From Gammaproteobacteria bacterium (GTDB lineage: Bacteria > Pseudomonadota > Gammaproteobacteria > Xanthomonadales > Wenzhouxiangellaceae), in assembly GCA_021772975.1 (NCBI GenBank), contig JAJFKY010000009.1, forward strand, positions 1-64,000: a stretch of DNA of 64,000 bases, given 5' to 3'. Position 1 is the first letter of the stretch; every line of letters starts with the position of its first letter. Position numbers and translations under genes: made by a program. The notes under the pieces were generated by a model. The model ran no database searches, was not told the DNA's origin, and saw nothing but the letters and a program-made list of their open reading frames with translations. Below, piece after piece: positions 9,377 through 49,275 of the stretch.

Positions 9377-10018
9377 TCAGGTAAAGTAAAGGCTACCGGC
9401 AATCTGTTGCTGACTCATCAGGCGGCGCAGGCGCTGACGGGCGCGGGATAGTACGCGGTATAAGTGATCCTGCCGGATGTTGTTCTGACTGCAGATTTCA
9501 CTGGACTGATGCTCGTTCAGATAATAACTGACCAGAATGTCCTGATCGCGCTGGCGGGGCAGGGTATTGAGCATTTCTGAGACAAAATGTCTGGTCTGTA
9601 TTTCCTCCAGCTGTGCGTCTGGGTTTTTACTGTGGTCCTGGGTCACCGCTGTGGCGATGTCATGCTCCGGATCACAAAATTGAATGTTATCTTTGTCCTT
9701 TTTGTGCCTGCGAATATACTGATAAGCAAGGTTTTTGCCGATGCTAGCCGCATAAGCGGAAAAAGATTCAGGTGTTTTAAGAGCCTGCTGACGAACCTTG
9801 ATCAGGCAGGCAATCAAGGTGTCCTGCAGGATGTCCTCGATAACGTCTGGTTCCCATATGATCTGCTGCAATCTAACTTTCAGTTTTGGCATGATTCTGA
9901 CGATCAGCTCGTTCTCGGCGGATTGATTGCCGTGGCTAACCTGTTCGTAAAGCTCTGCGATGGTCGGCTCGTAACTGTGGCCGGAATGCCACTGCCCGGG
10001 TGGAGTTTGACGGCCCAT
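9377..10018 (-). CDS. ECF-type RNA polymerase sigma factor
   Basis: The 213-residue protein has region 2 at about 20-105 (DVIEDILQDTLIACLIKVRQQ, then YAASIGKNLAYQYIRRHKKD, the DNA-melting and -10 part) and region 4 at about 145-205 (LNTLPRQRDQDILVSYYLNEHQ, then a helix-turn-helix ending in VLSRARQRLRRLM). It has no region 1 or 3, which fits an extracytoplasmic-function sigma factor. No anti-sigma gene is adjacent, so control may be at transcription: four phased repeats sit in its upstream region, directly after the large sensor gene. Its likely targets are its own unit and the peroxidase/TIG/RHS genes next door; that is inference from position. Confidence 0.87.
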   Translation of the reverse strand: MGRQTPPGQWHSGHSYEPTIAELYEQVSHGNQSAENELIVRIMPKLKVRLQQIIWEPDVIEDILQDTLIACLIKVRQQALKTPESFSAYAASIGKNLAYQYIRRHKKDKDNIQFCDPEHDIATAVTQDHSKNPDAQLEEIQTRHFVSEMLNTLPRQRDQDILVSYYLNEHQSSEICSQNNIRQDHLYRVLSRARQRLRRLMSQQQIAGSLYFT

Positions 10019-45235: not shown

Positions 45236-45285
45236 AACCCTGATAGGGGTTCTGTTGCAAAACAGTCGCGGGCGTCGCCTATACT
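45236..45285 (+). promoter_or_regulatory. Candidate promoter and operator of the CHAT unit
   Basis: A dyad AACCC-N6-GGGTT occupies 45236-45251. A -10-like TATACT lies at 45280-45285 and TTGCAA at 45255-45260, but the 19-base gap is long and the -10 is close to the ATG at 45289. So either the transcript is nearly leaderless, the real start codon is further in, or the promoter is of the ECF kind read by the sigma factor of this unit. I cannot decide. Confidence 0.3.
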
Positions 45286-45288
45286 GTC

Positions 45289-47616
45289 ATGACAGATAAC
45301 TCAGCAGGGGATGGAGCGATCAAGCAAAGTCAGCTAACAGCGACTTTCGGCCTGCTGGTCATTGCCGGTGGGTTATTGATTGCCGGTTGCCGGACCGGTG
45401 ATCCGTTCGGCTGTGCGCAGGCCCTGGCGGGTGAGGACTATGCACAGGCCGCCCTGGCCTGTGCCAGTGCTTATGAGCAGTCGGGCCGGCCTGAGTATGC
45501 CGGTCAGGTGGCGCAAGCCTACTATAAGCTGCATGATACAGAGCAGCTGCGGTCCTGGGGGGAACGGCTGGCGGGCACCGCAAATGAGCCGGGCGTATGG
45601 AGCAAACTGGGTAAGTTGCTGCGCGCCAATGGCGAGTACCGACAGGCGGATGCTGCCTTTCAGCATGATTATGAATTGTACCGGGCCGCCCATGATCACC
45701 TGGGCATGTCGCTATGTCAGTATTGGCGTGGCTATGTTGCCTGGGAAACAGCCAACTACAGGCTGGCGTTGGAATATGCCTCTGCCTCCTTCGATGCGGC
45801 CAAAAAAGCGGACAACGTCAAACGCGAAATCAATGCCTTGTATCTGTTGTTCAGCGTTTTTCAGGACCTGGGTTATAACGACAGCTCGGAGGAGATTCTG
45901 GGGCTGATCAAAGCGCGGATTGCGCACGACGACAGTTCGGCGCAAATCAGTTATCTCGTCAATGAAAGCGTATTGCGGATGAGCCAGCAGCGGATGGCGC
46001 TGGCCCGCGATGCTCTACAGAAATCGCTGGTGCTGACCACCGGTCAGGAAAGTAAGCGCACCCTCAGGTCGATCTATATCAACCTGATTGAGGCCAACCT
46101 TTCTCTGGGAGATATTGACAGTGCCGCCCTGCAAATGGAAAAAGCCTGGGAATATATGGAGCCCGGTGGCCGGGTACAAACCCCGTTGCTGCTGAATCAG
46201 GCTTTAATTCACACTGCCAAGGGTGAATATGATCAGTCGCTGGATATCCTGCAGTCCGCGCTGAGCAGAGAAGATATTACCGCCTACTGGCGCTGGCAGG
46301 TCTATCATGAAATCGGCAAGGTGGCCGAAGCCAGATCCGATGACGATTTGCTGGTGGAGGCTTATGGTCAGGCGATTACCACTCTGGAAGGGTTTCGCAA
46401 TACCCTGTCACTGGATGAGTTGAGAGCATCCTATCTGGATAAAAAGCGGCAGCCTTATGAGGCGCTGTTCAAATACTACGCTGTTTCCGGTGATGAAATA
46501 AAAGCGCTTGATATTGTGGAAAAGGCCAAGGCGAGGGTCTTTCTGGATGCTTATATTCATGCCAATCATGCCATTGCCGGAAGTGCCACAGCCGATGCCG
46601 TGATCCAGCAGGCCCCGCAACGTTTCGATATGCTCAGCGAGCTGCTGCCGGCGATGAATGCGTCGCCGGTTACCCAGCCCAGGCAGGCCGAACAGTTGCT
46701 GCGGCAGATAGGCGGCAACTACGTGCTGGTTTATTTTGAAACCGCGGACGGCCTGTGGGCGCTGGTGGTCAATGCAGATGGGGTGAAGGTCAGGTTACTG
46801 TACTCAGATATGCCTTTGCTGAGGGATCTGGTCTATCAGTTTGCCGCCAATCCTGATGATGCCCGGTATGCCGCAACACTGGGCGCTTTATTGATTCCGG
46901 CAGGTCTGATTTCGCGCTCCATCGATAAGCTTTATATTGTTACAGATTCTACTGTTGGCCAGGTGCCGTTTCCGGCGCTGATTGTGAACGGCAGGCGGCT
47001 GGTGCAGGATTATGCGCTAGGCTTTGTGCCCAGTATCAGCAGTTTACTGGCGCTGGAACAGAACGATACCGCACCGCAGTATGTTGACCCGGTGATTATC
47101 GGAGATCCGTTAAATAATCTGCCTTCCGCCAATGCCGAGGCGCTTAATGTAGGCCAGCAGTTAAACAGCCCGTCTTATATCGGCGCCCATGCCAGTCAAG
47201 AGGTTTTCTTCAGCAGCGCTAACGCATCGCTGCTGCACCTGGCGACTCATTCAGGCTTATCCGTGAATGGGCCGTGGTTCAGTCTGGCGGATGGCGAGGT
47301 GACGGCGGCCATGATCATGGCTGAAAAGATTTCACCCCGCCTGGTTATTCTGGCCAGCTGTGCTTCCGGCAGCACTGATAACCGCGGGTTATGGGGCTCG
47401 CTGGGCGCGGCTTTTCTGGCCGCCGGCAGTGCTGGGGTGCTGGCGTCATTATGGTCGGTCGACGATCAGGCGACCAGGGATTTTATGGAAGCGTTTTACC
47501 GGCATGATGCCTTGTCAAATCCGACCCTTGCACTGGCTGAAGTGCAGCGCGAATTTGTGCTGCAGAGCAGGCCGGCTTCGCAGTGGTCCGGATTTATGTT
47601 GCTTGGGATTATTTGA
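45289..47616 (+). CDS. TPR-repeat CHAT-domain lipoprotein (caspase-like protease family)
   Basis: The 775-residue protein begins with a lipoprotein signal (LLVIAGGLLIAGC, lipid Cys at about residue 34), then helical TPR-like repeats from about 40 to 440 (EDYAQAALACASAYEQSG, SKLGKLLRANGEYRQADAAF, LALEYASASFDAAKKADN), a linker, and a C-terminal CHAT domain at about 480-775. The CHAT dyad is visible: His654 in LHLATHSG and Cys691 in ILASCASG. CHAT enzymes are caspase-like cysteine proteases; most studied ones are cytoplasmic, whereas the lipobox here puts the protease outside the inner membrane. It leads a unit with a small membrane protein, an ECF sigma factor and an anti-sigma factor. Protease activity and target are inference. 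Confidence 0.9.
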   Translation: MTDNSAGDGAIKQSQLTATFGLLVIAGGLLIAGCRTGDPFGCAQALAGEDYAQAALACASAYEQSGRPEYAGQVAQAYYKLHDTEQLRSWGERLAGTANEPGVWSKLGKLLRANGEYRQADAAFQHDYELYRAAHDHLGMSLCQYWRGYVAWETANYRLALEYASASFDAAKKADNVKREINALYLLFSVFQDLGYNDSSEEILGLIKARIAHDDSSAQISYLVNESVLRMSQQRMALARDALQKSLVLTTGQESKRTLRSIYINLIEANLSLGDIDSAALQMEKAWEYMEPGGRVQTPLLLNQALIHTAKGEYDQSLDILQSALSREDITAYWRWQVYHEIGKVAEARSDDDLLVEAYGQAITTLEGFRNTLSLDELRASYLDKKRQPYEALFKYYAVSGDEIKALDIVEKAKARVFLDAYIHANHAIAGSATADAVIQQAPQRFDMLSELLPAMNASPVTQPRQAEQLLRQIGGNYVLVYFETADGLWALVVNADGVKVRLLYSDMPLLRDLVYQFAANPDDARYAATLGALLIPAGLISRSIDKLYIVTDSTVGQVPFPALIVNGRRLVQDYALGFVPSISSLLALEQNDTAPQYVDPVIIGDPLNNLPSANAEALNVGQQLNSPSYIGAHASQEVFFSSANASLLHLATHSGLSVNGPWFSLADGEVTAAMIMAEKISPRLVILASCASGSTDNRGLWGSLGAAFLAAGSAGVLASLWSVDDQATRDFMEAFYRHDALSNPTLALAEVQREFVLQSRPASQWSGFMLLGII

Positions 47617-47637
47617 GTTTTAAATAGCGAGGAAAAA

Positions 47638-47931
47638 ATGGATAACAAATTAACCTACATTATTATTCTGTTGGCCGGGGTAGCGCTTGGCGTGCTGCTG
47701 GTCAAACTCCTGGATGAGGACATTACCGGCGCGTGCTCGCCACAAATGCTGGAAGATATGGGCCTGGAGCACTTGAATAATCCCGACTCCACCGGTGCCG
47801 TGATGATTCTTCCGGAGGGCGCCAGTTATGAAGTTGACAGAGTAACCGGTGCGGTAACGGTTACCTGTGGCAGTGAGGCCTGTCCCATTATCGAATCGTG
47901 CACGCTGCCGCCGGACGGCGACCTGAAATAA
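47638..47931 (+). CDS. Small membrane-anchored protein of the CHAT unit (97 aa)
   Basis: I do not recognise this protein. It has one N-terminal membrane helix or uncleaved signal (about 4-25, LTYIIILLAGVALGVLLV) and an acidic exported domain of about 70 residues with four Cys (CSPQMLEDMGL near 34; CGSEACPIIESC near 79-90). GAGGAA lies 7 bases before its ATG. It sits 21 bases after the CHAT gene and 5 bases before the sigma gene, so it is very likely part of the same transcript. The Cys could form disulfides in the periplasm. Confidence 0.75.
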   Translation: MDNKLTYIIILLAGVALGVLLVKLLDEDITGACSPQMLEDMGLEHLNNPDSTGAVMILPEGASYEVDRVTGAVTVTCGSEACPIIESCTLPPDGDLK

Positions 47932-47936
47932 TCAGT

Positions 47937-48560
47937 ATGCCGGCCAATTCAACCAATAGTCAGCAGCAGGCTGTGACAGGCACGGTCTCCCGGTTACAGT
48001 CCGGTGAGGCGCTGCTTGAAGCGGCCTTGACGCAAGGTGATTACCGGCGGGTGTTGACGTTGCTGATGAATCAATACGGCAATCAGATTTATCGTTTCTG
48101 TCTGCGTATGGTCAAAGAACAGGGTATGGCCGAGGATGTGCATCAGATGACTTTTGTGCAGGCCTATGAAAGCCTGCCGGCATTTAAGGGGCATTCATCT
48201 TTGCGTACCTGGTTATTCAGTATCGCGCGTAACCGTTGCCTGGATAGCCTGAAAATGACCCGCCGCAGAGAGCGGCGGATTACGCTGGTTGAGCAATTGC
48301 CGGAAACTGCCGGAGATCAGCATAGCGATGCCCAGCTGTCCAGCGGTGGTTTCAGTGCGCAGCTGGCCCGCTGCCTGCGCCAATTGGCCCCGCATATCCG
48401 CAGCGCGGTGTTATTGCGCTTTCAGGCAGAACATTCTTACCAGGAAATCAGCCAGATATGTTCAGAAAAACCAGCTACTTTACAGGCCCGGGTGGTACGG
48501 GCGCTGCCTGTATTGCGGCATTGTCTGGAACAGGGGGGTATTACCAGTGAATCGCTGTAA
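47937..48560 (+). CDS. ECF RNA polymerase sigma factor of the CHAT unit
   Basis: The 207-residue protein has sigma region 2 (about 45-125: YGNQIYRFCLRMVKEQGMAEDVHQMTFVQAY, SLRTWLFSIARNRCLDSLK) and region 4 (about 148-200: LRQLAPHIRSAVLLRFQAEHSYQEIS, then LQARVVRALPVLRHCL). I begin it at ATG 47937, five bases after the preceding stop, because the longer frame overlaps that gene without a site. Its stop overlaps the anti-sigma start by 14 bases, the usual coupling of a sigma/anti-sigma pair. Confidence 0.9.
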   Translation: MPANSTNSQQQAVTGTVSRLQSGEALLEAALTQGDYRRVLTLLMNQYGNQIYRFCLRMVKEQGMAEDVHQMTFVQAYESLPAFKGHSSLRTWLFSIARNRCLDSLKMTRRRERRITLVEQLPETAGDQHSDAQLSSGGFSAQLARCLRQLAPHIRSAVLLRFQAEHSYQEISQICSEKPATLQARVVRALPVLRHCLEQGGITSESL

Positions 48561-49215
48561 TCGATTTGAACAAGAAGGGTTATTGATGCTGGAAAAGGGT
48601 GAACCACTCAGTCAGCATTTCAGGGAGTGCGGGGACTGCCGGTCTGCTCAGCAGGCTTATCAGGCTATTAAGTCGGAACTCAGGAATATGCAAGATCAAT
48701 CAAAAGCGCCAGAGGGTTGGCAAAACAGGGTTTGGCAACTTATCGCTCAGCGCGAACAACAACCGCAGCGCGATTGGCGTCGCGCACTGTTACCGGTGGC
48801 CGCGTCAGTGGCCGGAGCGGTGTTTATTATCAGCCTGTTGCTGCCGGCGCAGCATGAAGTGTCATTGATGGTGTCGATCGAACCTGGTACGGCAGTGACT
48901 CGCGGTGTCAATGCACGACCGGGTGATTCACTGATCATTGCCGCCACGGCAGGCGAAGCCAGCGTCGCGGATATATTGATATACCGCAATGATCGTGAGC
49001 TGGTGTTCCGCTGCAGCGCGGAACCCGATTGCCATCGTACTGGCCAGCGCCTGACAGGGAAATTGATTTTAACAGGCATCGGCAGCTATCAGCCCGTACT
49101 GATAATGTCCGAGTCAGCTTTGCCCGAACTAAGTAATAATCTGGATGAGGACTCGCGACTTGTCCTGGAGTCAGGGGCAACGATAAAGCTGGCCGAGCAA
49201 ATATCAGTGTATTAA
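48547..49215 (+). CDS. Zinc-finger anti-sigma factor with membrane anchor (GTG start)
   Basis: The protein (222 aa) carries the ZAS zinc motif HFRECGDC at about 24-31 in its cytoplasmic N-terminus, a single membrane helix at about 80-100 (LLPVAASVAGAVFIISLLL), and a periplasmic beta-rich domain of about 120 residues with one close Cys pair (FRCSAEPDC). This is the layout of an anti-sigma factor that holds the ECF sigma factor at the membrane. The GTG at 48547 is chosen for the G-run 48532-48537 about 9 bases before it and for the 14-base overlap with the sigma gene. The periplasmic domain is where the CHAT lipoprotein could act (inference). Confidence 0.87.
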   Translation: MNRCNRFEQEGLLMLEKGEPLSQHFRECGDCRSAQQAYQAIKSELRNMQDQSKAPEGWQNRVWQLIAQREQQPQRDWRRALLPVAASVAGAVFIISLLLPAQHEVSLMVSIEPGTAVTRGVNARPGDSLIIAATAGEASVADILIYRNDRELVFRCSAEPDCHRTGQRLTGKLILTGIGSYQPVLIMSESALPELSNNLDEDSRLVLESGATIKLAEQISVY

Positions 49216-49237
49216 TAATAACGATAGCAACGATTTG

Positions 49238-49275
49238 ACGGAGCACTGAAGCGAAGCTTCAGTGCTCCGTTTTTT
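49238..49275 (+). terminator. Strong rho-independent terminator of the CHAT unit
   Basis: A perfect 15-bp stem ACGGAGCACTGAAGC (49238-49252) pairs with 49256-49270 around a GAA loop, followed by six T (49270-49275). It lies 22 bases after the anti-sigma stop. On the minus strand no T run follows, so it is one-directional. Confidence 0.93.

Follow-up and report, generated by a model that had tools for sequence, protein, structure and literature searches.

An exported CHAT protein encoded with an ECF sigma factor and a membrane anti-sigma factor as a possible site-1 protease in Gammaproteobacteria

What might an exported caspase-like protein do beside a sigma factor and its presumed inhibitor? 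This question is raised by a 64,000-nt stretch of contig JAJFKY010000009.1 from a Wenzhouxiangellaceae bacterium (hereafter the window, with positions counted from its first letter), in which four co-directional genes spanning 45289-49215 encode a TPR-CHAT lipoprotein, a four-Cys membrane protein, an extracytoplasmic function (ECF) sigma factor and an anti-sigma factor. Bacteria commonly encode caspase-like CHAT proteins, the best studied of which, Csx29, acts in the cytoplasm; to our knowledge, few of these proteins have a known substrate. That the four genes form a module is close to certain. The coordinates of the four open reading frames (ORFs) and of their three junctions (21 bp, 5 bp and a 14-base overlap between the sigma and anti-sigma genes), which had been claimed in a first-pass annotation of this DNA, were recovered from the ORF list of the window, and the single strong terminator it described was found as a 16-pair stem followed by a T run. 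The reading that we put forward, at slightly less than an even chance, is that the CHAT protein would be the site-1 protease that frees the sigma factor from the anti-sigma factor.

The CHAT domain was identified by Pfam (PF12770, E=1.3e-33, 117 bits versus a cut-off of 24) together with TPR matches, and the His654/Cys691 dyad and lipobox noted at first pass were both present in the sequence. Among the CHAT proteins of the own-genome and order sets, the catalytic His and Cys were kept in 43/43, and a peptidase activity is predicted for the window protein. Its lipobox (LIAGC) contains Cys34, which is invariant in both orthologues described below. Rather than the cytoplasmic location that the first-pass annotation had named as speaking against its proposal, the N-terminus is an export signal with a conserved lipobox and no cytoplasmic start. 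The start codon itself is uncertain: the ATG at 45289 follows a conserved TATACT at a distance of only 3 bases (window 45280-45321), and an alternative is offered further downstream by GAGCGATC (in-frame ATC at 45319), a conserved sequence that the genus-mate shares (L033 8850-8898). The genus-mate CHAT ORF was called from TTG and has no in-frame ATG. A non-AUG start is possible; the signal peptide is retained with either candidate.

For the sigma factor, regions 2 (PF04542, E=8.5e-16) and 4 (PF08281, E=1.7e-7) both scored above the Pfam cut-offs and TIGR02937 was also above its cut-off, in agreement with the earlier assignment. The anti-sigma factor has an H24-x3-C28-x2-C31 motif, invariant across three orthologues, and one transmembrane helix (TM) at about residues 81-99, followed by a beta-rich periplasmic tail. 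No Pfam anti-sigma match was found and NF052375 reached E=2.8e-7 (30.8 bits versus a cut-off of 100); since no curated anti-sigma model scored above its cut-off, the label ZAS-type (zinc-associated anti-sigma) is based on the motif, the TM and the gene position. The gene overlap and the motif suggest that this protein binds and inhibits the neighbouring sigma factor. The 97-amino-acid (aa) protein, annotated at first pass as a small membrane protein with four Cys, indeed has an N-terminal membrane helix and the four Cys, and gave no match in family-model scans.

A search for the same gene order, proposed as a check in the first-pass annotation, located it in a genus-mate (G001, Gammaproteobacteria bacterium isolate OFTM154), where the CHAT (771 aa, 53% identity), the small four-Cys protein (82 aa, 29% identity, with all four Cys kept), the sigma factor (68-69%) and the anti-sigma factor (55%) follow one another within chromosomal flanks common to both loci. 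Genome G431 (uncultured Woeseiaceae bacterium FO_M_Gamma_097) belongs to another family; one of its strands encodes an 803-aa lipobox CHAT and a Cys-rich lipoprotein, and the homologous sigma/anti-sigma pair lies on the opposite strand, convergent with the CHAT gene; the identities to the window proteins are 28% for CHAT, 45% for sigma and 33% for anti-sigma. The three CHATs form one clade (99% support in the Shimodaira-Hasegawa-like approximate likelihood ratio test). The occurrence of the same set in two arrangements indicates that the genes stayed together while the layout changed. The samples from the order, the class and Woeseiaceae yielded no other full-length relative of the window anti-sigma factor, giving only weak partial matches. 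A scan of the genome contigs with the single CHAT protein returned no relatives, and the sequences of a 14-row CHAT alignment proved too diverse to serve in the collection scan.

To place the locus in a broader context, we used 40 order CHAT loci chosen by similarity to the window CHAT regardless of gene context, and PF12770 samples of the class (outside the window's order) and of the phylum. An ECF sigma gene was located within 3 kb of the CHAT gene in 27/40 order loci, 25 of them on the same strand, in 4/40 loci from the rest of the class and in 0/22 from the phylum; among the Woeseiaceae CHAT loci, the count was 12/20. The sigma density in the order was 0.129 per kb near CHAT versus 0.010 far from it. 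Based on the densities of sigma-70 family matches in the own genome (31 in 3.7 Mb) and in genome G051 (80 in 6.4 Mb), a sigma gene would be expected within 3 kb by chance in about 5-8% of cases; because loci of related genomes are not independent, no p-value is given for the linkage. Chance neighbourhood, by which ~5% of own-genome loci would carry a sigma gene at this distance, is refuted as a general explanation by the order and Woeseiaceae counts and by the two arrangements of one gene set, and we assign it a negligible probability. On the CHAT tree, ~16 changes of the sigma-linked label were counted versus a shuffled mean of 28.3, and the starred branches alone force 5, indicating that the link arose or was lost repeatedly, yet in a clustered manner, and not in one event. 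A hydrophobic N-terminal segment was tried as a mark of the sigma link and rejected as not specific (21/29 versus 8/14 and 20/22).

In the usual layout, the sigma gene is followed by that of an anti-sigma-like protein, which has a single TM in its middle and a tail in the periplasm, and then by that of an exported TPR-CHAT. The window locus is a reversed-order variant of this widespread module, a point that goes beyond the first-pass annotation. CHAT genes lacking a conserved sigma link had been named there as contrary evidence, and some relatives do lack the pair (one own-genome CHAT and most in other orders), whereas the CHAT lineage of the window keeps it in 3/3 genomes and in two arrangements. 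Of the two further CHATs in the own genome, L002 has a sigma gene upstream.

Two side observations were made at these loci. At L039, L060, L070, L071 and L254, the anti-sigma position beside the sigma gene near CHAT is taken by a Ser/Thr kinase-like protein that has a TM and a tail in the periplasm, possibly representing a kinase-controlled variant. Directly upstream of the long CHAT genes in the window's family lies the gene of an exported Cys-rich protein (~195-225 aa), with sigma present or not (L001, L002, L034, L036, L054, L056, L057 and L058).

A candidate for the cut site, which is an addition to the first-pass annotation, came from the CHAT-linked anti-sigma-like tails, in which an Arg with a small residue next to it on the C-terminal side is found repeatedly, some 10-35 aa past the TM. 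A free count of Arg-[Ser/Gly/Ala] within 50 aa of the TM gave only a moderate difference between CHAT-linked (26/28) and CHAT-unlinked (14/31) anti-sigma factors, with shuffle expectations of 0.61 and 0.48, respectively; this count being indecisive, it was set aside and the argument was rebuilt on aligned columns. In the discovery alignment, comprising 19 members of the largest anti-sigma family (13 from order/class loci and 6 from Woeseiaceae), a periplasmic Arg was found in 18/19; only two columns of the whole protein are better conserved, and none of them is periplasmic. Across 40 further homologues from 200 order genomes, the Arg was present in 40/40 and the next residue was always Ser, Gly or Ala, with variable surroundings. 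The combined pattern has hydrophobic residues at P7 and P5, Asp/Glu at P4, the Arg, and then Ser, Gly or Ala. Asp/Glu occupied P4 at 21/46 non-redundant sites versus a background of 0.13 (p=6e-8, exploratory), an enrichment that matches the D/ExxR consensus, after the Arg of which separases cleave (PMC4626109). A second family is similar (EVLRG, DTLRA, DVLRN), with P4 Asp/Glu in 7/10 listed members, and in the window family Arg119-Gly120 is invariant in 3/3 orthologues. Among 39 checked genomes with the motif family, 37 hold a CHAT gene, and in the remaining two a truncated exported ORF of the CHAT-like N-terminal type lies directly behind the anti-sigma gene at the contig end. Three CHAT-unlinked anti-sigma factors related to the main family resemble it only in the cytoplasmic domain and TM, and their tails differ. 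Between the window anti-sigma factor and the main family, profile comparison aligned only part of the cytoplasmic domain (probability score 18), and a fold search with the window tail gave only weak Ig-like matches, none with E<=0.001; the periplasmic tails of the two are thus not demonstrably homologous.

Taken with these features, the following chain is proposed. The TPR-CHAT lipoprotein would be a latent cysteine protease of separase-like type, located in the periplasm, and its TPR part, perhaps with the four-Cys membrane protein, would sense an envelope signal. Once active, it would cleave the anti-sigma factor on the periplasmic side, close to the membrane and most probably between Arg119 and Gly120 (site-1 cleavage), after which RseP and cytoplasmic proteases would finish the degradation and free the ECF sigma factor. 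An RseP gene is present in the genome (TIGR00054, 358 bits), so that a one-TM anti-sigma factor and a site-2 protease, the prerequisites of regulated intramembrane proteolysis, are both available. The gene content, conservation, linkage, export signal, intact dyad, Arg-small motif and RseP gene are observed; the activity of CHAT, its anti-sigma substrate, the position of the cut, the triggering signal and what the small protein does are inferred. The recurrent linkage, the conserved dyad and the Arg-[Ser/Gly/Ala] motif lend indirect support to the first-pass suggestion of an exported CHAT acting on the anti-sigma factor, while the proteolysis itself is a step that we infer.

Several points weigh against this chain. 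The window site, AVTR↓G, has no acidic P4, and the second own-genome CHAT (L001) has no sigma gene nearby. Some sigma/anti-sigma pairs, such as those of L276, L290 and L292, keep Arg-Ser with no CHAT on the contig; their genomes have a CHAT elsewhere, and these pairs might serve as a control or represent trans partners. As the Arg is placed at a beta-strand end, with hydrophobic P7 and P5 alternating, it may have a structural role. The motif was chosen by inspection of sequences, and the 40-sequence set, being retrieved by a profile that contained the Arg, is only a partial replication, with E-values (1e-12 to 1e-40) at which one column is unlikely to have been decisive. Asp726 was considered as a sign of Arg specificity and abandoned: most CHATs conserve it, sigma-linked or unlinked, and it therefore gives no argument for an anti-sigma substrate. 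The AlphaFold2 models of CHAT and anti-sigma were each built from a three-sequence alignment and had a mean predicted local distance difference test score (pLDDT) of 66 and 56, respectively; the anti-sigma model is weak and suggests a beta-rich tail with Arg119 in a low-confidence loop.

The conservation of the Arg also bears on an alternative in which the CHAT protein is an output of the sigma factor, the pair controlling its own operon and the exported protease acting on other envelope proteins in quality control or self-damage. Targets are often included in ECF operons, co-transcription would suit autoregulation, and the usual order of sigma, anti-sigma and CHAT suits a regulator followed by its target. 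This alternative would leave unexplained both the near-invariant periplasmic Arg-[Ser/Gly/Ala] of the partner anti-sigma factors and the differing tails of their CHAT-unlinked relatives, and we judge it unlikely, if deserving of attention; the output and activator roles of CHAT are compatible.

For the proposed site-1 cleavage, known systems offer partial parallels. The best PDB fold matches of the CHAT model were Csx29 (Craspase), DdvA and separase, and the CHAT-group profile matched DdvA best among PDB sequences (E=8.6e-13). With separases (peptidase family C50), the likeness lies in the fold matches and in the D/ExxR-type candidate site of many relatives; separases, however, are eukaryotic and cut cohesin, and the Pfam C50 match of the window CHAT reached only E=0.1. 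In Craspase, a type III-E CRISPR system, the TPR-CHAT Csx29 cleaves the CASP-sigma inhibitor Csx30, the cut being near residue 427, within a loop without an essential residue (PMC10028731). Here, too, a TPR-CHAT protein is combined with a sigma inhibitor and an ECF sigma factor, and Csx29 is the top fold match, but the protease is exported and the inhibitor is a membrane protein, and the Csx29 family model scored far below its cut-off (NF041237, 14.8 bits versus 300). Being RNA-activated and tied to Cas7-11, Craspase works in the cytoplasm, unlike the exported CHAT, and no gRAMP-sized ORF was found among the ORFs listed at 42-53 kb of the window.

CHAT proteases are also found in defence systems, and a module in which CHAT kills the infected cell while the sigma pair merely controls expression would agree with a weak PADLOC match to BovA (E=1.3e-4) and with the sub-threshold Csx29 model match. 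The envelope location, the flanks in common with the genus-mate and the finding of no defence family above threshold argue against such a module, which we regard as very unlikely.

In the Myxococcus xanthus DdvA/DdvS system (PDB 8rot and 8rw5, where the transmembrane anti-sigma factor DdvA has its chain named CHAT domain-containing protein), an ECF sigma factor is likewise controlled by a membrane anti-sigma factor, one that includes a CHAT domain, and the aligned CHAT part contains LATHG and LAACEGG, so that His and Cys are kept. Anti-sigma, TM and CHAT form one polypeptide in DdvA, whereas the window, the genus-mate and the Woeseiaceae genome each encode them in different genes; the window has a separate CHAT lipoprotein and an extra four-Cys protein. 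Since CHAT is part of the anti-sigma polypeptide in DdvA (8rot), a sensing or binding role can easily be pictured, by which CHAT would dock on the anti-sigma tail via the conserved Arg loop and alter its hold on the sigma factor with no cut, and the Arg may serve docking or structure. The retention of His and Cys, in DdvA as in every own-genome and order CHAT, would be unexpected for a pure scaffold, and binding alone seems to us distinctly improbable.

Cleavage by CHAT would resemble RseA/DegS/RseP and RsiW proteolysis in having a one-TM anti-sigma factor, an ECF sigma factor and RseP. It would differ from the RseA/DegS/RseP case in that the site-1 step would fall to a cysteine protease of clan CD whose gene accompanies those of the pair, whereas DegS is a PDZ serine protease.

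On a wider scale, and slightly more tentatively than for the window itself, exported separase-like CHATs might constitute a widespread gammaproteobacterial class of site-1 proteases that cut their partner membrane anti-sigma factors, close to the outer face of the membrane, at a conserved Arg-[Ser/Gly/Ala], often as (D/E)xxR, an extracytoplasmic counterpart of the Craspase switch. A TPR-CHAT cutting a cytoplasmic sigma inhibitor (Craspase) and a CHAT inside an anti-sigma factor (DdvA) are already known. Besides Craspase, no paper linking CHAT and ECF sigma factors was found in the literature searched, with much of the subscription literature outside its reach, and none there described an exported CHAT, encoded as a protein of its own, whose membrane anti-sigma partner carries a conserved candidate site. 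If the proposal is true, it would tell what a large group of exported CHATs cuts, where and to what end, a protease of a new kind would stand at the head of an anti-sigma cascade, and Craspase and DdvA would become variants of one recurring pairing for CHAT-ECF sigma control; the question would be open to one point mutation per side (Cys691 and Arg119). For the bacterium, the four-gene module suggests a route from an envelope signal to gene expression.

Table 1. Coordinates of the features of the four-gene module in the window.
Feature	Position	Strand	Basis or remark
Possible promoter -10 region, GTCGCCTATACT element	45274..45285	+	Just upstream of the CHAT gene; common to the genus-mate by eye
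Exported TPR-CHAT lipoprotein, 775 aa	45289..47616	+	PF12770, lipobox, orthologues, fold matches
Codon of catalytic His654	47248-47250		CHAT gene
Codon of catalytic Cys691	47359-47361		CHAT gene
Codon of Asp726	47464-47466		CHAT gene
Small one-TM protein, four conserved Cys, 97 aa	47638..47931	+	Genus-mate counterpart; possible sensor, adaptor or inhibitor
ECF sigma factor, 207 aa	47937..48560	+	Sigma70_r2 and Sigma70_r4_2 above cut-off; counterparts in two genomes
One-TM ZAS-type anti-sigma factor, 222 aa	48547..49215	+	HxxxCxxC motif, TM (about 48787-48843), orthologues
Candidate cleavage site, Arg119-Gly120 codons of anti-sigma	48901..48906	+	20 aa behind the TM; 3/3 orthologues
Intrinsic terminator closing the operon	49237..49271	+	16-pair stem, T run

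Elsewhere in the window, a second ECF-type sigma gene is located at 9377-10018 on the minus strand, with no CHAT gene near it.

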